From assembly GCA_012517375.1 (NCBI GenBank), contig JAAYVC010000051.1, forward strand, positions 1-34,263: a DNA stretch of 34,263 nt, in the 5' to 3' direction. The notes beneath the pieces are model-generated. The model searched no databases, had not been told where the DNA came from, and saw only the letters and a list, made by a program, of their open reading frames with translations. Within the stretch, counting starts at the first letter, position 1. The number at the start of each line of letters is the position of its first letter. The translations under genes and the position numbers were made by a program. This DNA comes from a bacterium. Its GTDB lineage: Bacteria > Hydrothermota > Tepidihabitantia > B3-TA06. This document shows positions 5,270 through 31,576 of the stretch, piece by piece.

Positions 5270-6946
5270 CTACATCTCTTCTGGAGCTGCGATAACCGGA
5301 AGTTTCTGATAGCCTTTGTTGCTCTTTCGTATCTCCATCTCTGAAAGAAGGATGCTCGGCGCAACAAAAGAACTCAAGCCGTTCTTCGCAGTCCAGACTC
5401 GGGAATCAGCGCCAAGGGCTATCACCCTGTTAAGGGTAGAAAGAGGAGAGGCCGAAAGCACCTCTATACCTCGCACCGGTTCCTTGCGGCCGTCAGTATA
5501 GAGCTTGTACGCTTCCAGGGGCCTGAATTTGCTCGTAGGCCTTGCTCCTTCTGCTGTTGTAAGAACCATGCCGTCGACGATAACCATGTTGGTTTGCGCA
5601 TCCTCTCCTTCATCCAGCCGTGCCGATGAGATGACAAGACCGTATGGTTTTCCAAGTCTGCGGCACTCGGCAATGAGCGAGTTCTCAAGCGCTCGCTCGC
5701 TCAAAGGAGCAGACGATTCGAGAATAAGGTTTCCTGCTGATACTTTGCCTGAACGGTAGTGTCCGTTTGAGTTCGGAAATTCCTTACTTGGCGAACGCGA
5801 CATGAGCATGTTCTTCAGCACGCCTTGCGAAACGAGGTTCACTCTCTGAGCCGGAACACCCTGATCATCGTAGCGGTAGTAACCGGCAAGAGCCTGTCCT
5901 TCGTATTCACTTATAGTCGGGTCATCATAGATGTTTAAGGAAGGCAGCAATACACGTTCGCCGACTTTCTTTTCAATTCCCTCAGAAGAGTTATTCAGTT
6001 TTCTTTGCGTCATAAAAAGAGGCGCAAGCTCTGATTCGAGATAAACGGAAGAAGCCGAAGCTTTGATGAGTACCGGCCCGGCGTAAGCTTCACACGTAGG
6101 TTTATTCCTGAAATCGGTAAGGGTCTTGGCCATTCTGGTTACTGTCTCGTCCAGGAACCCCGAATCAAGACCGCCGTCAGCCAAGACAAGTCTTTGCTCG
6201 GCGCTTGTCGGCATCCCGTCCTCGGAACGCGTGAAGGCCGAGATAATAACGGCGAATCCCAATTGGCCGTCCTGGATTGCCGACCCCTCGCTTGAAACGA
6301 AGTAGGTGTTCAATCCGTTTGCTTCCAGCGCGACGCTGGAAATCAATATATCCGGATACCGCTTAAAGATGGCTGAAAGGTTTCTTATTCTCTCCTGCCA
6401 TAGGGCTTTATCCGCTGCGAGATTGACTTCGTCTCCGATATAATTTGCCGCATCTTCCCTGCTGAAATCACTGGGCTTGTCTTCGTCGGGATCAAGGGAA
6501 ATCATTCTCGCTTTCTTTGAATAATCTTCGAGCGCTTCCTTGTAATAATAATCCGTGGCAAGCCACAACCGGTGCTTGATGACCGCCGTATCATTATCAA
6601 CAGGAATCTGTCTGTACTTCCAATAATCCTCAGTGCTCATCCAGGAATCATTTCCTGCGTTTGAATTGTCAAGTTTATAGTCGCCAACCCTGAGTTCCAC
6701 ATCCAGGTTTCGCATATGGGACTCATCGGACTTGACAAGTGATCCAAGACTAGCCTGAACGATTACTTTAGATATGTCGCAAATTCGGTAGCTTATAAAA
6801 TAAGGCCTCTGGCTGCCCGCTATTTCGAGGTTTTTCATGGAGCGGTTCAGCTCAGACTGCATGGCATTAATAATCGGAGAAGGCGAAGCGGCCAGAACCA
6901 GCGAGGCGGATGCAAGAAAAACTAGAACTATTCTTGTCTTTTTCAT
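5270..6946 (-). CDS. Exported TldD/PmbA-like protein lacking zinc ligands
   Basis: 558 residues with a cleavable signal peptide (RIVLVFLASASLVLAA). It is a full-length paralogue of the upstream gene: PYFISYR, VGDYKLDN, YDDPTISEYEGQALAGYYRYDDQG, SNGHYR and the C-terminal APSILLSEMEI all align with it. At the metal site the partner has HETYGH; here the aligned residues 304-309 are ESELAP. The late Cys (GFCGAES in the partner) is also gone. In E. coli TldD carries HExxxH and TldE/PmbA does not, and the two form one heterodimeric protease. By analogy this is probably the non-catalytic subunit. RBS AGGAGG fixes the ATG, 11 bp after the partner's stop. Confidence 0.88.
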   Translation of the reverse strand: MKKTRIVLVFLASASLVLAASPSPIINAMQSELNRSMKNLEIAGSQRPYFISYRICDISKVIVQASLGSLVKSDESHMRNLDVELRVGDYKLDNSNAGNDSWMSTEDYWKYRQIPVDNDTAVIKHRLWLATDYYYKEALEDYSKKARMISLDPDEDKPSDFSREDAANYIGDEVNLAADKALWQERIRNLSAIFKRYPDILISSVALEANGLNTYFVSSEGSAIQDGQLGFAVIISAFTRSEDGMPTSAEQRLVLADGGLDSGFLDETVTRMAKTLTDFRNKPTCEAYAGPVLIKASASSVYLESELAPLFMTQRKLNNSSEGIEKKVGERVLLPSLNIYDDPTISEYEGQALAGYYRYDDQGVPAQRVNLVSQGVLKNMLMSRSPSKEFPNSNGHYRSGKVSAGNLILESSAPLSERALENSLIAECRRLGKPYGLVISSARLDEGEDAQTNMVIVDGMVLTTAEGARPTSKFRPLEAYKLYTDGRKEPVRGIEVLSASPLSTLNRVIALGADSRVWTAKNGLSSFVAPSILLSEMEIRKSNKGYQKLPVIAAPEEM

Positions 6947-6957
6947 CTATTCCTCCT

Positions 6958-8706
6958 TTATAAATCAGGTTCGCTTCTATCTTTTCCATCATCCTGCGGC
7001 AAGGAAGGATATAGAGGCGAAGGCAGTATTGGCGGTTTGCGGTTGCTTGCCGCATCCTTGGCTATTTCAATCTCCGAGAGGAGAATGCTTGGCGACACCA
7101 GTCCTACGGGAACAGAGCCCGACTCCGCCCCGCAGAAGCCGTTGAAGACCTCGGGATCATCGCCTGCAGCCATTATCTTGTTCAACGCAGCAAGCGGAGT
7201 TCCGCCGAACTTGATTCCGCGAACGAGTTCCTCCTTGCCGGTCTTGACATCCACCCTGTAAACCAGAAGCGGGTTGGATTGAAAAAGTTCCATAAAACCG
7301 CGGCTTGTATTGGTCGCTCCGCCCTCTGAACGTACAAAGATCAAGCCGTACGGTTTGCGCTGCTTGCGGCATTCGGCAAGAAGCTGTTTTTTCAGCTGTT
7401 CAAACGGCACAGGCCGTGAATTCTCAAGAATGAGATTGCCTTGTCTTGGAACAGGGATGCCGCCCCATCCTATGTATTCCATCTGCGCTCGGCCGTGACC
7501 GTTTGAGTATGGAAATGCTTTAATGGGCTTGCGAGAGCACAGAAAGTTCTCAAGAACGCCGTTTGAGATAAGGGTAACGCGTCTTGAAGCGACGCCTTCG
7601 TCGTCGTATAGATAAAAGCCGTTCAAGGGCTTACCTTTATAGTCCTTTATAGTGGGATCGTCGTAAAGGGAAAGGAAAGCTGGAAGGATTCTGCTGCCTA
7701 CCTTGTCCTTGAAGGTCTCGCCCGATTCCCTTGATTCTATCCTATGCGATTCAAGCCTGTGCCCGTATGTCTCGTGGATAAAAACGCCTGCCGCCCTGCT
7801 TTCAATAAGCGCAGGCCCCACGTAAGCCTCCATCACGGGCGCGTTTTTAAGGGCAAGCACCTCGTTTACGAGCATTGCAATCTCTTTGCGTACGCTGTCA
7901 TCTGAAGGCAGCCCCTCGACAGACCAGCCGAAATAATTGCGGTAACTCTGTACCCACATACCGTCATCGGCTTGGGTTGAGGCGATGATTCTCAACCAGC
8001 AATAGAGTTTTCCTTCTTGTATCTCCGAGCCTTCAGTTGAACAAAAATAGTTATTCCTGGCTTCTACCGAGAAGGAAACTTTAGATTCTTGAATCTCGGG
8101 ATAATCGGCGAAAATAGAGGAATACTGCCTGATTTTTTGCTCCCACTTCGACCGGTCGACCGTTAAGCGAACCTCTTCGCCTATGTAGGATACAGGATTC
8201 TGGCGATCGAAATCATCCGAACACTCTTCCTCGACCTCTGTCGCGCGCCGACCTTCTTTTTTTGCGTACTGCCTAAGCGCCTGCTTGTATCGGATATCGG
8301 TCATCAGCCATAGAGCGCGGGAAAGAAGCGCGGAATCTTCCGCAAGCGGAATTGGAACCTTTTTATACTCTTCATTTGCTTTATTGTCTTCAGGAGCGTA
8401 ATCGTAAATCTGATCGGCGGAAGGCATATTATCGAACCTGTAATCCCCTACTCGAACCTGGACGTTGAGGAACCTCGAATGGGTATCAGAAGAATCCATG
8501 AGTGCGCCAAACTTGGCGCTAGCTGAATATTTGCATCTGTCTACAAGCAAGTAGCTTATAAAATATGGCTTCTTTTCCCCCTCTAGACTGAGATCGCTCA
8601 TCGACCTGTCCAGCTCCTTTCTCATCGTTTTAAGAAGAGCACTAGGAACGGCTCCGAGGAGCATCGTTGATACAAGTAACGAAATAATAAAGAACTTAAG
8701 TCTCAC
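6958..8706 (-). CDS. Exported TldD/PmbA-like metalloprotease, catalytic
   Basis: 582 residues from a GTG at 8706, chosen because AAGGAGG lies five bases upstream. An ATG 39 bp further up would add residues before a clear signal peptide (LKFFIISLLVSTMLLGAV). The TldD/PmbA fold is evident: the zinc motif HETYGH at residues 311-316 corresponds to the family HExxxH, and the C-terminal domain has YDDEGVASRRVTLISNG, SNGHGR and GFCGAES, the last a candidate third zinc ligand. Cytosolic TldD acts on peptides such as microcins and CcdA. Export to the periplasm or surface is unusual. It is first in a two-gene operon with 5270-6946. Confidence 0.9.
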   Translation of the reverse strand: MRLKFFIISLLVSTMLLGAVPSALLKTMRKELDRSMSDLSLEGEKKPYFISYLLVDRCKYSASAKFGALMDSSDTHSRFLNVQVRVGDYRFDNMPSADQIYDYAPEDNKANEEYKKVPIPLAEDSALLSRALWLMTDIRYKQALRQYAKKEGRRATEVEEECSDDFDRQNPVSYIGEEVRLTVDRSKWEQKIRQYSSIFADYPEIQESKVSFSVEARNNYFCSTEGSEIQEGKLYCWLRIIASTQADDGMWVQSYRNYFGWSVEGLPSDDSVRKEIAMLVNEVLALKNAPVMEAYVGPALIESRAAGVFIHETYGHRLESHRIESRESGETFKDKVGSRILPAFLSLYDDPTIKDYKGKPLNGFYLYDDEGVASRRVTLISNGVLENFLCSRKPIKAFPYSNGHGRAQMEYIGWGGIPVPRQGNLILENSRPVPFEQLKKQLLAECRKQRKPYGLIFVRSEGGATNTSRGFMELFQSNPLLVYRVDVKTGKEELVRGIKFGGTPLAALNKIMAAGDDPEVFNGFCGAESGSVPVGLVSPSILLSEIEIAKDAASNRKPPILPSPLYPSLPQDDGKDRSEPDL

Positions 8707-9734: not shown

Positions 9735-10565
9735 ATGTTCAAAACCAAAGCATTGGCAATGACCGCTATCCTTGTGCCTTTCCTACTTTTTGCCGCGGAT
9801 CTCAAAACGTCAACCTATTCATCGGACGACTTTAAGCGCGTGGAGCTCGAGACTTTCAATGGCTCCATATCGGCGACAGTTACCGATGACGAAGATATCA
9901 CGATAAAATACAGCATCGGCACCGGCGTGCTCCCTGAGGAAATGGATAATGCCTTAGGAGCCTTAACAAAGCTTGCGTCCGAGCTCGGCGGCATTGATGA
10001 CCTGAACGTCGAAGTCCAGAAGGACAAGGAGGCAGGCATTCTCAAGATCAAGGTTGACCAGGATGAAAACGAATCAATCACAGGCTGCAACGTCGAAATC
10101 TCAGTTCCCGAAGACATTTATCTCAAACTCTCTACCGATAACGGCTGGATAACGGTCGACGGACTCAAGAAAGGCTTCGACATCTCAAGCATCAACGGTT
10201 ATCTCGACATAAAGAATACCTCAGGAAACGCCAGATTCGAAGCAACAAACGGCTACGTAAAAATCGATCATAAGGGCAACATCACCGGCAACGCCACGAA
10301 CGGCTACGTATCAGGCAAAGTAGTTATGGCTGACCACAACGGGGCATGCAAGATATCCTCGGTCAACAACAACATCGATATAGAGGTCCCTTCCACTGTC
10401 GGCGCCAGGGTGTCCTTATCGACCGTACACGGAACGACCGCTATATCCGGATTCGATGTAGAGACAAAAGAGATAGACGGCGACATAGTAAGAACGATAG
10501 GCGACGGTTCAGGAACCATTGACCTCTCAACCGTGAACGGCGATGTGGAGCTAAGGGAGCTTTAA
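9735..10565 (+). CDS. DUF4097-type exported beta-helix protein
   Basis: 276 residues with a signal peptide (LAMTAILVPFLLFAA). The mature protein is a string of short strands with repeated NG/SG turns: TFNGSISATV, TDNGWITVDG, SINGYLDIKN, ATNGYVKIDH, ATNGYVSGKV, TVHGTTAISG and TVNGDVELRE. This is the pattern of the DUF4097 family, predicted right-handed beta-helix proteins often tied to envelope stress or adhesin-like functions. Length fits the family. TAGGAGGAG lies ~4 bp before the ATG. A palindrome overlapping the promoter suggests control by a repressor. A periplasmic or surface location is inferred. Confidence 0.85.
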   Translation: MFKTKALAMTAILVPFLLFAADLKTSTYSSDDFKRVELETFNGSISATVTDDEDITIKYSIGTGVLPEEMDNALGALTKLASELGGIDDLNVEVQKDKEAGILKIKVDQDENESITGCNVEISVPEDIYLKLSTDNGWITVDGLKKGFDISSINGYLDIKNTSGNARFEATNGYVKIDHKGNITGNATNGYVSGKVVMADHNGACKISSVNNNIDIEVPSTVGARVSLSTVHGTTAISGFDVETKEIDGDIVRTIGDGSGTIDLSTVNGDVELREL

Positions 10566-11245: not shown

Positions 11246-11875
11246 CTATTTGTTGAAGAAGAAACCGATGTTTGCATTAAGCATCAAGTCGTTTTGCCAG
11301 GGGCCTGAATCATGATAATACGCATTGAGCACGCCTGTCTCAAGAAAAATGCTCGTACGCCGGAACAAAGGAATCTTAAGCCCTGCCATTGCTGCAAGCA
11401 TGGGATTGACCGCGTAGGTGCCAAGACCAAGGAGCCAGACTCGACCTGAAAGATAGGGATAGACCTTCTTGAAAGGATAACCCAGGTACAACGACCCCTC
11501 CCCTACGTAGAAGAACGGAAACTCTGCGATGCTGAAAAGCGTGCCGATTCCTGCACCCGCGCCAACGGCAAGATAATCGGGGATGATGCCATACTTGCAG
11601 TCGAGCTTGGCTCCCACGCCCCAGGACGAGATGCCCACGTCGAACCGTTTCCCGATTCCGTAACGCGCGCCGAACCCGGCTAAAGGTATGGCACCGAACT
11701 CGAGCTTGCCCGTGCTGTCGGTGCTGAATAAACCTACGCCGCCGATTGACCCGCCGAAATCCCATTCGCCCTCGGGAGTCGTTCGCGGCGCCTGCATGTG
11801 GTACACTGCACAGCCCGGGAGCGCCAGTGCTATCAAGCAAAGCCCATGGATGAGAGGTCTGATAGAGGCGTTCAT
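11246..11875 (-). CDS. Small outer-membrane-barrel-like lipoprotein, second copy
   Basis: 209 residues from the ATG at 11875. The start is set by the ATGA overlap with the upstream gene and by a lipoprotein signal (LCLIALALPGC, Cys at residue ~22). The mature part is glycine- and aromatic-rich with alternating strands (GGSIGGVGLFS, SWGVGAKLDCKYG, LAVGAGAGIGTLF, GEGSLYLGYPFKKVYPY). It is a paralogue of 2255-2860, sharing CxxYHxQxP, the SWGxGxKxD segment and the SLYxGxPxKxxYPY segment. It is translated after, and coupled to, the small membrane protein 11872-12120. Function unknown. Confidence 0.85.
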   Translation of the reverse strand: MNASIRPLIHGLCLIALALPGCAVYHMQAPRTTPEGEWDFGGSIGGVGLFSTDSTGKLEFGAIPLAGFGARYGIGKRFDVGISSWGVGAKLDCKYGIIPDYLAVGAGAGIGTLFSIAEFPFFYVGEGSLYLGYPFKKVYPYLSGRVWLLGLGTYAVNPMLAAMAGLKIPLFRRTSIFLETGVLNAYYHDSGPWQNDLMLNANIGFFFNK

Positions 11876-12120
11876 TCGCGCTTCTTGTTGCTTGCGAAGA
11901 GTGCGATCAAGATCACCCACATGCCGGCCATGAACGGGATGGATGCCGGGTACGACTGCCTGTCTGTCAACTCGCCGATTATTATGAGCCCAACTGCAAG
12001 AACCACGGGTACTGCCATGTAGAGTATGTACACCCACTGCCTCTTGAGCACGGCTATGATAACGCCCAGAGCGACCAGAACTGCAGCAACGATTATTGCG
12101 GTAACGAACCACAGCGTCAT
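11872..12120 (-). CDS. Small three-helix membrane protein
   Basis: 82 residues with three hydrophobic helices (~3-23, ~30-48, ~60-76) and a KKRE tail. The stop overlaps the start of the lipoprotein gene 11246-11875 (ATGA), implying translational coupling. AAGGAGGAAGC precedes the ATG and a promoter lies at 12145-12172. No family recognised; the coupling suggests a shared envelope function with the barrel lipoprotein. Confidence 0.75.
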   Translation of the reverse strand: MTLWFVTAIIVAAVLVALGVIIAVLKRQWVYILYMAVPVVLAVGLIIIGELTDRQSYPASIPFMAGMWVILIALFASNKKRE

Positions 12121-14910: not shown

Positions 14911-15516
14911 ATGAACACCAATGAAGATAAGACTCTAGGCACAAATGCTACTCATGTATTAGCTTCATCAAGCCTCTCTTCTACTGCAACCAAAAAAATA
15001 AAGATAGGTTATAAAAGAACTTGCGAATGCGGCCCTACTCACATAAATTGTATGACCCCAAAAGAGTGGCTAAAAAGCCAGCTTGGGGTGTGGCAATTTA
15101 CATATGAATCAAGGGATGTCCGTGACAAGAAAATTCACCCTGCAACTTTTCCTATTTCTTTAGCAAGGAAAGTTATCGAATTATTTACTCACCAAGGGGA
15201 ACTAGTCTTAGATCCATTTGTAGGCAGCGGCACAACCTTAGTAGCCGCGCAAGATTGCAACCGCAATGCTGTCGGTTTTGATTTGCGAATACCACCCTAT
15301 ACTACCGAAAATGAACCGATAGAGATTTGTAACCACTGTGGACGAAGCGTCGCATGGGGTTCAGGTCGGTTTGTGAATCGAGTACCTGACCTTAACGACG
15401 CTGTGACAAGAATTGCAAACGGCCTCTTGTTCCCAGAAGGTGATTACGTGTGTGACGAATGCGACCAGATGACTTCTGATGATGCACCCCTCTATTCTTT
15501 GGGTAAAGAGAAATGA
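14911..15516 (+). CDS. Truncated/chimeric DNA methyltransferase with zinc-binding tail
   Basis: 201 residues. Residues ~50-125 are a DNA amino-methyltransferase segment: PKEWLKSQLGVWQF, then HPATFPISLARKVIELF (motif X region), then motif I LDPFVGSGTTLVAA (D101-T109) and VGFDL. The catalytic motif IV ((D/N/S)PPY) that follows in this arrangement is absent. After FDL the protein switches to a 75-residue tail with CNHC (140-143) and CDEC (181-184), a probable zinc site. RTCECG near residue 37 adds further Cys. An 'IPPY' at 127-130 is probably chance because it sits too close to motif I. It overlaps the next gene by ATGA. Catalytic activity is doubtful. Confidence 0.75.
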   Translation: MNTNEDKTLGTNATHVLASSSLSSTATKKIKIGYKRTCECGPTHINCMTPKEWLKSQLGVWQFTYESRDVRDKKIHPATFPISLARKVIELFTHQGELVLDPFVGSGTTLVAAQDCNRNAVGFDLRIPPYTTENEPIEICNHCGRSVAWGSGRFVNRVPDLNDAVTRIANGLLFPEGDYVCDECDQMTSDDAPLYSLGKEK

Positions 15517-16541
15517 GCACCTCCATATCAGAAAAAACTATCGAAGACATCCTTGCAGCAGATAAGGCTATTTTGGCCGAGATACTTTCACTTTCCGCAT
15601 CCGACTTAAGCCTGATTATAAGACAAAAGCAGTTGAAATCCGGAAAGCTCGATTTATTGTACTTGCATAAAACGGAACTTCTACTTATTGAGTTGAAGGT
15701 CGTTGCATTCTATCGAGGAATCTTGAAACAGATTAATGATTACTGCACAGACCTAATGGAGTTGCAAAGCCAAAATAGAATAATCAACGCAGACATCAGA
15801 AAAATCCTGCTGGTAACGAATGCCCGTCCAGCCGACATAGACCTTTGCCGAAGAGAACAAATCGAACTAATAGTTTACAAGCCGCAAGATATACTTGCGA
15901 AATTCTTTGAGAATTTCAAGCAGATGACTTACTTCCTGAGGATAGAATCAGCCGATTACGGGGTTACGTGGCTTCGCTTGCTAAAGCCAACTTTGGCATT
16001 GTTATCTAATGGCAACTCCATTGAACAAATATGTCAGTCGCTAAACAAATCTTCGAATACCATTAGAAACAGGCTATCAGTTGCGATGCGTTTGCAGTTG
16101 GTATCAAAATTTAAACATAAGTATTTCTTAACCGATTTGGGAAACGCCCTTTTGTCGAAAAGTAATTCTGAGGGTGAGGACGAATTTAATCAAGAGCAGA
16201 TAGATTTGTTAGCCGATTTCATCATGGAAAACCCTTTCTTTTCCACGGTGACGTTCACCATCTTCAGTATCATCGAGTCGGCTTTTGTGTTATCCAAGAG
16301 CATTTATCCGGTTCCATTTGAAAGGTTACGCGATTATTTTGTTGAACTGGTCGGAAAAGCAAGCACATGGAAAAAGGCAAAAGCCAGAGATACTGCCACG
16401 TATATATTCTCCAATTATGCCTGCGAGCTTCAATTCCTTTCTAAAGTCAACAATTACTTCTACCTAACACCGAGAGGCATCCGCGCCGTTCTCCTGTTAC
16501 AGTTAAACCGCTCTTTAAAACTTATCGAATCTCAGGGGTAG
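15513..16541 (+). CDS. PD-(D/E)XK nuclease-like protein with winged-helix domain
   Basis: 342 residues. The N-terminal domain carries a PD-(D/E)XK-like site: GKLDLLYLHKTELLLIELK gives D47, E60 and K62, followed by Q73 and a Tyr (KQINDY) as in RecB/Hjc-like nucleases. Residues ~165-210 form a helix-turn-helix (IEQICQSLNKSSNTIRNRL then YFLTDLGNALL), and the C-terminus ends in a second winged-helix-like segment (YFYLTPRGIRAVL). Start is fixed by ATGA overlap with the methyltransferase-like gene. Its last codon and TAG stop coincide with the start of a palindromic repeat, so the C-terminus may have been altered by that element. Role as a restriction or repair nuclease is inferred. Confidence 0.75.
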   Translation: MSTSISEKTIEDILAADKAILAEILSLSASDLSLIIRQKQLKSGKLDLLYLHKTELLLIELKVVAFYRGILKQINDYCTDLMELQSQNRIINADIRKILLVTNARPADIDLCRREQIELIVYKPQDILAKFFENFKQMTYFLRIESADYGVTWLRLLKPTLALLSNGNSIEQICQSLNKSSNTIRNRLSVAMRLQLVSKFKHKYFLTDLGNALLSKSNSEGEDEFNQEQIDLLADFIMENPFFSTVTFTIFSIIESAFVLSKSIYPVPFERLRDYFVELVGKASTWKKAKARDTATYIFSNYACELQFLSKVNNYFYLTPRGIRAVLLLQLNRSLKLIESQG

Positions 16542-16622
16542 GGGCCGACTTTGGCGTCTAAACGCCGCTTTGCGTAAGTCGGCCCGTTTCTCTCCGGGCT
16601 GACCTGAAGGTTAGCCCCTACG
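16538..16622. repeat. REP-like compound palindrome, copy 1
   Basis: The outer ends are GTAGGGGC and GCCCCTACG. Between them lie a large arm (GGCCGACTT...AAGTCGGCC, enclosing a GGCGTCTAAACGCC hairpin) and a second arm (GGGCTGACCTGAAGGTTAGCCC). The same ends and second arm occur at 19499-19563. It supplies the TAG stop of the preceding gene and abuts the truncated endonuclease. Confidence 0.8.
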
Positions 16623-16625
16623 CTA

Positions 16626-17198
16626 ATGCACGTAGAACCCTCCCCTCGCGCTTGTAAGTTTGTTCCATCCGTTTTGCTTCCGCTTTACGGTTGGAAGCAT
16701 CAGGAAGCCGGAACCAAATACCCCTCAAACGAAATGAGCTTTCGACAAACAATCAGTGGTGCATCACGATCTGACCGCGGGTTTACCGTTATCATCGATA
16801 GCAATGAACAAAAGGTCAAAATTTCATTTGATGCAAACGCCGTAAGCCAAAAACATGCTGATTGGTTGAAATCTGTAAAGAGAAGAATTGGACTTGAAGA
16901 GTTAAACCCTCAACCCTACTGGGGTTTCAGCGATCTTTTCCATAAGGCAGGAACGAAACTTAAGAATTGTTTCTACGTTAGGGCAGAAAGAAAAATCGTT
17001 GAGGGTTGCGAGTATTTTTGGTACAAAAACATCATGGTGTTAAGCAAGTTCAGCTTGGATAAATTCTTAGCAGCTTTAGAAAAGGGATTTGTTCTGGTGG
17101 ATTTTGATGCACGAACAGGTCATAATCATGGTACTAAATTTAGACTGCGGCAAGACAAACTATCAGAATTATATAGTGAAAATACGGTAGTCGATTAA
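16626..17198 (+). pseudogene. 5'-truncated MvaI/BcnI-like restriction endonuclease
   Basis: A 190-residue open frame. Its body matches the C-terminal two thirds of the MvaI/BcnI restriction endonuclease family as I know it: SFRQTISGASRSDRGFTVII, then KNCFYVRAERKIVEGCEYFWY, FSLDKFLAALEKG and a C-terminal DFDARTGHNHGTKFR motif (159-173). Family members are ~240-260 residues and carry the catalytic D-x-(E/H)-L-K near residue 50. That region is missing here, and a REP-like element sits where it should be. The ATG at 16626 has no ribosome site. It is most likely a non-functional remnant of a restriction-modification system with the upstream methyltransferase. Confidence 0.7.
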
Positions 17199-26453: not shown

Positions 26454-27086
26454 TTGCGACGTATGATTTCAATTTCGCTTCTGGGAGTGGGGTTCCTGCT
26501 CGCTGCCACTCCGCAAGAAACTTTAAACTCCGTAATTAGCAAATATTCGAGCGCCAGTTCGCTTAAGGCGATTTTCAAGGAACAGATATGCTCCAAGTCT
26601 CAGGGTACGTGTCAGGAACTAAGGGGAACTTTCATATACTCCTCGCCTAATAAATTCAGATTGGATGTCGTAATCCCTATGGAACAACTTGTCGTCTCTG
26701 ACGGCAATACCTTCTGGATATACCTTCCTACCCAGAATCAGGCTATACAAACAAAACCTGGTCCTGAACAGGAACTTTTCCTCTTTGTGTCTAGATTATC
26801 CAACTACTCCGAAACCTACACGGTTAATACAGCTCAAAAAGATGGAACAGTTGAGGCAAAGTTCACCGCTAAGCCTGATAAACAACCCTTCCTGAAGGAA
26901 TTCACACTTCTGCTCGACCCTAACAAAAACGATATTGATGGCATTAAGATAACAGAAGGAGACTCCGAGATAATATTCTACATGGAATCCGTCAAACTAA
27001 ATGTAAAAACGTCTCCGAGTCAATTTCTTTTCTCGCCTCCCGAGGGAACAACGATAATCAAGGACACAGGCACGGGCTACCAGTGA
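26454..27086 (+). CDS. lolA: LolA-like outer-membrane lipoprotein carrier
   Basis: 210 residues with a signal peptide (ISISLLGVGFLLAATP). The LolA pattern is evident: an N-terminal helix (TLNSVISKYSSASSLKAIFKE), then LRGTFIYSSPNKFRLDVVIP, LVVSDGNTFWIYLPTQNQAI and a C-terminal FSPPEGTTIIKD, matching the family's 'F.f.pP.g..vi'. LolA carries lipoproteins across the periplasm to the outer membrane. The TTG start is supported by AGGAGG 7 bp upstream. It overlaps the next gene by GTGA and heads a five-gene operon that ends in a LolB-like lipoprotein. Confidence 0.87.
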   Translation: MRRMISISLLGVGFLLAATPQETLNSVISKYSSASSLKAIFKEQICSKSQGTCQELRGTFIYSSPNKFRLDVVIPMEQLVVSDGNTFWIYLPTQNQAIQTKPGPEQELFLFVSRLSNYSETYTVNTAQKDGTVEAKFTAKPDKQPFLKEFTLLLDPNKNDIDGIKITEGDSEIIFYMESVKLNVKTSPSQFLFSPPEGTTIIKDTGTGYQ

Positions 27087-30661: not shown

Positions 30662-31576
30662 TTACTTTTTCTTCGGCTTCGCCTTCTTAACAGGACGGAA
30701 GATACCTATTTTCATAATTTCTGCAATATTCGCATGCTTGTCTATCTTCGGTACAATAAGGGGCTTTGCGGATGAAATCAAAGTAGTTATACCGGGACCA
30801 TGACCGGCTAGAAGGCAATCGGAATGAACGACTATCCCAATTGTGACTGCTCCTTTGCGCCAGCTGCGTCCATAGCAGTTGTCATGATCCATAATGGCAA
30901 CGAAATCGCCAAAACGAAGCCTGTCTAGCCCGAGCCTTTTTATCTCGGCGCGATCGGTAGTCATTATGTCGTAGTCGCCGGTGCCCATAGATGTAGAACC
31001 TGTGCCTGAACCCATAAGATAACCTGGAACCAAAGCGGCAACAGGCACTTCAATTTTGCCGGCTTTCAACTCCTTTATACCCATCTTCTGAAGAAGCATG
31101 GGATCAAGGCTGTAGCAGAGAATATCGGGATAATCGAGTAGCTTGAGACCTTGCCCCCATCCCTTTACGAGGAACTTATCGTCCATATTAAGCTTCTCAA
31201 GAACTTCATCAGGGAAATCGATCATCACGTGCTCAGCCCCGCCGTGATGACCTGTAACCACGCCTTTCTTTCCTTTTGCGTCGCCTGTAACTATGACAGC
31301 CTCGTTGCCTATGCAGGAGTAAAAATGGTAGGAAGCGTTTTGAAAACCATATCGCTTCTCCTCGTCGACAACCGTAGAGACACCAGGCTCCAGGTGGTCG
31401 CCCTCCCATCCGAAGGCGGAATGTCCGACTTTAATATTGTAACTAATGCCGCCAATTGAAGGCAGTGCGAAGGGACCTCCGCCAGCATCTACCGAATGAC
31501 TTCTCGTAGGCGCAGGAAAGGCAACCCTCCCCTGAACAGACAATTTTACTACCCTGTCTTTGTTTGTGCGAATCAT
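30662..31576 (-). CDS. DUF4438 family protein
   Basis: 304 residues matching my knowledge of the DUF4438 family, known from Thermotogae and other anaerobes and of unknown function. Characteristic parts are GHSAFGWEGDHLEPGVS, GDAKGKKGVVTGHHGGAEHV, PGYLMGSGTGSTSMGTGDYD and FGDFVAIMDHDNCYGRSW with several conserved His and Asp. There is no signal peptide, so it is cytosolic, and it ends in a Lys-rich tail (KKAKPKKK). AGGAGG precedes the ATG. Monocistronic with its own promoter. It is divergent from 31723-32415. Confidence 0.85.
   Translation of the reverse strand: MIRTNKDRVVKLSVQGRVAFPAPTRSHSVDAGGGPFALPSIGGISYNIKVGHSAFGWEGDHLEPGVSTVVDEEKRYGFQNASYHFYSCIGNEAVIVTGDAKGKKGVVTGHHGGAEHVMIDFPDEVLEKLNMDDKFLVKGWGQGLKLLDYPDILCYSLDPMLLQKMGIKELKAGKIEVPVAALVPGYLMGSGTGSTSMGTGDYDIMTTDRAEIKRLGLDRLRFGDFVAIMDHDNCYGRSWRKGAVTIGIVVHSDCLLAGHGPGITTLISSAKPLIVPKIDKHANIAEIMKIGIFRPVKKAKPKKK

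Follow-up and report, generated by a model that had tools for sequence, protein, structure and literature searches.

To our knowledge, TldD/TldE is known only as a cytosolic two-part protease. In E. coli, TldD on its own is inactive; both it and TldE are required (PMC5810440). Together they form a hollow shell in which the metal is held by two His residues and Cys454 of TldD, the peptide cleft binds through backbone contacts, and Lys456 of TldD tethers a clamp (PMC5810440). A TldD homodimer from Sulfolobus has also been reported to be active (discussed in PMC5810440).

The window analyzed here is a stretch of 34,263 nucleotides, and it carries two adjacent genes, designated A and B, that resemble this system. 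Their features are as follows.

6958-8706, minus strand: gene A, 582 aa, GTG start behind an AAGGAGG ribosome site; predicted exported TldD-like metallopeptidase subunit
8650-8706, minus strand: putative Sec signal peptide of A, MRLKFFIISLLVSTMLLGA, from hydropathy and the -3/-1 rule (heuristic, not SignalP)
7759-7776, minus strand: HETYGH of A (residues 311-316), the HExxxH metal and catalytic motif
7117-7134, minus strand: CGAESG of A, including Cys525 (7132-7134), the equivalent of TldD Cys454, third metal ligand
5270-6946, minus strand: gene B, 558 aa, ATG start behind AAGGAGG; inactive paralogue of A
6887-6946, minus strand: putative Sec signal peptide of B, MKKTRIVLVFLASASLVLAA (heuristic, not SignalP)
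6020-6037, minus strand: ESELAP of B (residues 304-309), the degenerate counterpart of HETYGH in an alignment of 20 A and 19 B proteins from the window's phylum

The original prediction described two full-length paralogues in one operon, and this is what was found. A and B align along their full length with 37% identity (E 1e-120), and B lies downstream of A across a gap of 11 bases. Among the listed ORFs on the same strand, the gaps are 288 bases upstream of A and 639 bases downstream of B, which argues that A and B are a two-gene unit. Alignments of A with this genome's canonical TldD/TldE proteins covered short parts, with about 25-37% identity and E-values from 5e-4 to 4e-18. Alignment also confirmed the predicted contrast between HETYGH with a late Cys in A and ESELAP without a Cys in B: HETYGH and Cys525 of A align with the metal ligands of E. 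coli TldD (phmmer), B has no Cys in the corresponding column, and HExxxH was absent from every B examined. In the window's phylum, HExxGH and the Cys are present in 20 of 20 A genes and 0 of 19 B genes. Between relatives, pN/pS is 0.21-0.29 for A and 0.25-0.44 for B; the latter values indicate purifying selection on B, and thus that B retains a role despite having no metal site.

The resemblance of A and B to TldD/TldE is far beyond chance, as judged from both domain and structure matches. The sole Pfam match of either protein is PF19289, the C-terminal PmbA/TldD domain, with 100.1 bits for A (E 1.4e-28) and 76.5 bits for B (E 2.2e-21) against a cut-off of 22 bits. The N-terminal domain PF01523 was detected in neither A nor B (Pfam, E 0.1), though the fold match spans 540-560 columns. 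The AF2 models have pLDDT values of 89.8 (A) and 85.7 (B), and in Foldseek searches of the PDB at E <= 0.001 both matched TldD/TldE entries only. The best match of the A model is TldD 5njf (TM 0.79 by target length; E 3.5e-31 to TldD); that of the B model by E-value is Thermotoga TM0727, 1vl4 (TM 0.77, E 1.4e-26). B shares its fold with TM0727 and with Thermococcus TldE (6j6a), both of the cytosolic TldE lineage, but falls outside that clade.

In fold, A and B are like E. coli TldD/TldE (PmbA; PDB 5nj5, 5njf). In both systems the subunits are separately encoded, one with HExxxH and a distant Cys and one without. The likeness extends to a brace arginine, R421 of A aligning with Arg362 of E. coli TldD, and to E319, which aligns with Glu270. 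There are also distinct differences. A and B are predicted to be exported, are about 100 aa longer and lack a detected PF01523; their genes are adjacent, natural fusions of the two exist, and the dead subunit appears to come from a separate duplication. A has Ala at the position of Lys456 and an Arg directly after HExxGH. This Arg is found in 95 of 95 A-type members, and in the same tree set HExxGHRxE, CGA and the metal site are each kept in 95 of 95 proteins; the Cys is invariant in all 50 rows of alignment A3. Canonical TldD, by contrast, has CGK in 17 of 18 proteins, so that HExxGHR..CGA appears as a clear family signature. The best NCBIfam match was the archaeal zinc metalloprotease TldD, NF040952 (8.8e-26 for A, 6.6e-12 for B), but its score of 90.6 bits compares with a cut-off of 635, and the other TldD/TldE equivalog comparison gave 46.5 of 513 bits. 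A and B are members of the wider PmbA/TldD superfamily, yet by phylogeny (below), equivalog cut-offs and predicted location they are neither TldD nor TldE. Presumably, database records name proteins of these types only as TldD/PmbA family proteins.

The N-termini of A and B were originally proposed to be export signals, and both fit the heuristic used here: each has a positive start, a hydrophobic core (9-residue means of 2.8 and 2.9) and a small-residue cleavage site, and a signal peptide of similar kind to that of A is kept in its relatives. Among A-type ORFs, the heuristic passes 82 of 99 with all starts allowed and 57 of 78 when a single start is chosen for each; among B-type ORFs, the figures are 59 of 72 and 35 of 55. 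The same rule passes 1 of 34 canonical TldD/TldE proteins. Because 67 of 399 long ORFs (about 17%) pass as background, a signal-like N-terminus is weak evidence for a single protein; the family-wide pattern is a strong indication of export. Thus, A and B are predicted to be exported rather than cytosolic as TldD/TldE are. A LolA gene at 26454-27086 in the window makes it probable that the host cell is diderm. A Cys metal ligand could be open to oxidation in the periplasm, which counts against an exported metallopeptidase.

Natural fusions offer what we consider the best argument for the predicted export. A-B fusions were found in three genomes, one from the window's phylum (L076), one from Acidobacteria (L103) and one from Eisenbacteria (L132). 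Those at L076 and L132 consist of a signal peptide, A, a short soluble linker, and then B without a signal of its own; the L103 fusion has the same A-linker-B junction, and its start is cut by a contig end. That the fused B half has no signal peptide speaks in favour of A and B assembling 1:1 outside the cytoplasm.

The two-gene arrangement, whose presence in other genomes had been suggested as a check, is widespread. Among 147 genomes of the window's phylum (labelled Caldifarciminota or WOR-3 after its nearest named relatives), the pair occurs in 18, and A precedes B in every genome with both on one contig. Among named genomes, B directly follows A on the same strand at 61 of 80 loci, two of these being fused. 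The paired loci come from at least 12 phyla: Acidobacteriota, Planctomycetota, Caldifarciminota, Verrucomicrobiota, Zixiibacteriota, Cloacimonadota, Eiseniibacteriota, Gemmatimonadota, Bacteroidota, Ignavibacteriota, Cyanobacteriota, Pseudomonadota and Aminicenantes, as labelled by record titles, many of which belong to metagenome bins and some of which may be wrong. The remaining 19 loci comprise 17 of a solo-A clade, one on a contig that ends just after A, and one (L114) of A type outside the solo clade with no B within 7 kb. The spacing of A and B is an exact 4-base overlap in 20 of 55 measured cases. Across 70 pairs, the evolutionary distances of A and B are correlated (r 0.93, whereas none of 2000 permutations exceeded 0.21), which indicates that the two genes are inherited together. 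The exported family occurs in 23 of 149 sampled Acidobacteriota genomes, 21 of them with A and B adjacent. The original prediction held a secreted version of this architecture to be unusual; it is common rather than rare, but we found no description of an exported TldD-like pair in the open-access literature.

The 17 members of the solo clade are from Myxococcota and have A alone; no B was found elsewhere in the 12 of 12 such genomes searched. The solo exported proteins of Archangium (L116) and Corallococcus (L148) belong to the same family as A, with HExxGHR, CGA and about 40% identity, and differ in coming from a genome without a B partner. In Archangium's phylum, the family is present in 94 of 146 genomes, mostly as a single gene. 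An adjacent A/B pair is present as well in six of these genomes, most of which carry a solo-type A gene separately. One genome (G087) has two separate A/B pairs (L079 and L080).

Canonical relatives were also surveyed. The window's own genome (G000) has six canonical, signal-less TldD/TldE genes with PF01523 at four other loci (L089-L092, on contigs C95, C72, C91 and C25), an unusually large set for a genome of 2.5 Mb. A canonical PF01523 gene was absent from six of 14 exported-family genomes (G149, G151, G153, G155, G159 and G160), bins that may be incomplete. No relatives of A or B were found in viral contigs, and plasmid records gave only canonical TldD-like matches with <30% identity and at most 64% of A aligned.

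No gene neighbor of A/B conserved across phyla was found among the loci compared, and for this reason we name no substrate or pathway partner. Within the window, two short lipoprotein-like proteins, alike by eye, flank the pair on either side (2255-2860 and 11246-12112, both minus strand); their lipoboxes are GCSMYHLQTPQVVPQGK and GCAVYHMQAPRTTPEGE, and neither has a Pfam family. An exported protein that is weakly DUF4097 toastrack-like is encoded on the other strand upstream of the pair (9735-10565, plus strand). Farther away are a restriction-modification locus (14911-17198, plus strand) and a DUF4438 protein with both family halves matched (30662-31576, minus strand). The restriction-modification locus consists of a 201-aa N6/N4 DNA methylase fragment, a wHTH-like gene and an MvaI/BcnI-type restriction endonuclease; the fragment matches only positions 116-211 of a 221-position profile and looks incomplete as read.

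To place the two genes, trees were built from 200 proteins (95 A-type, 71 B, 18 TldD and 16 TldE) and from smaller sets. In the 200-protein tree, a long branch with support 1.0 sets A and B apart from the rest, and TldE forms a single group. A 57-protein tree under a site-mixture model gave SH-aLRT support of 100 for the split between A+B and TldD+TldE, with 67 for A, 82 for B and 99 for TldE. The placement named beforehand as a possible refutation, one gene with TldD and the other with TldE, was not observed; the other such condition, N-termini predicted not to be export signals, was not borne out either. Forcing B to group with TldE was 156 log-likelihood units worse and was rejected (AU p 3.6e-42). 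B as a TldE orthologue is refuted under the tree models used; hence the active site of B was lost independently of the loss in TldE. The duplication and loss that had been proposed as independent are borne out in this respect, but not as an event in one genome: the duplication and loss appear ancient and common to at least 12 phyla. The root inside A+B is unplaced in these trees, and the order of solo and paired forms is not readable from them.

Several other explanations of the pair were considered. The shared fold, the same active/inactive logic and the weak NCBIfam TldD matches would all suit a TldD and a TldE that had acquired signal peptides. We hold this to be highly improbable, given the rejection of B with TldE and the fully supported split of A+B from TldD+TldE, the scores far below the equivalog cut-offs, the A-type HExxGHR..CGA against canonical CGK, and the presence of ordinary TldD/TldE in the window's genome as well. 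Still harder to credit is the proposal that A and B are degenerate, functionless relics. Catalytic residues have indeed been lost in B, but full-length ORFs persist across many phyla with the low pN/pS values given above, and the metal-site residues of A are invariant; the conservation of both genes contradicts it.

The remaining alternatives concern how B arose and what it does. The window family may have duplicated and inactivated its own copy, which would mean two or more separate origins of a dead subunit among the exported proteins. Its B proteins lack an insertion that most other B have after the dead motif, carry the dead motifs ESELAP, AEVLVP and SAVLAP where other B have FQxLGKG, and are closer to their own A (39-42%) than to other B. 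A separate duplication in this family was not rejected with 57 rows (AU p 0.43) but was rejected with 36 rows (p 0.013), and all B group together in both trees (support 82 and 97, respectively). We regard such a local origin as unlikely; a single loss shared by the window family's B and all other B is probable, but less sure than the separation of B from TldE. Alternatively, A may function as a homodimer, the form also proposed for the solo clade; B would then be a distinct regulator or binding protein, inhibiting or titrating A, rather than an obligatory half of the enzyme. The solo clade with no B elsewhere in its searched genomes and the reported activity of the Sulfolobus homodimer (discussed in PMC5810440) speak for this. 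The near-fixed adjacency of A and B, their 4-base overlaps, the three fusions and the co-varying distances point instead to a constant 1:1 unit, and E. coli TldD needs TldE for its activity (PMC5810440); we find the homodimer proposal decidedly doubtful.

We therefore prefer, with good but not full confidence, to read A and B as an operon for an exported TldD/TldE-like heterodimeric metallopeptidase, in which B, rather than descending from TldE, arose when a gene of the exported family was duplicated. A would hold the metal site, with His311, His316 and Cys525 as ligands and Glu312 as the base, and B, its metal site lost, would supply the other, structural half. Once exported by Sec, the two would pair into a hollow two-subunit periplasmic shell, and on the simplest reading B would play TldE's part there. 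By analogy with E. coli, the cleft of A may bind extended peptides by backbone contacts and cut them. The likeliest role would be the trimming or clearing of unfolded or leader-type peptides outside the cytoplasm. What the sequences themselves show is the gene order, the motifs, the folds, the conservation, the fusions and the phylogeny; the dimer, the bound metal, the activity, the compartment and the substrate are inferred. Speaking against this reading are the heuristic basis of the signal peptides, the undetected PF01523, the Ala in place of Lys456, the lack of a B near A at L114 and the possible oxidation of a periplasmic Cys ligand.

With less assurance, we lean towards a broader proposal: that this is a widespread periplasmic two-subunit metallopeptidase whose dead partner came from an active exported ancestor of homodimer type, independently of TldE. 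If so, the active/inactive architecture of TldD/TldE arose at least twice, once outside the cytoplasm, and the surviving solo, paired and fused forms show steps of the change. A second independent pair outside the cytoplasm would be a natural replicate of how an active subunit comes to need a dead partner. The proposal would also name the pair and its likely mechanism in many soil, sediment and uncultured bacteria, in which periplasmic peptide processing is poorly known.
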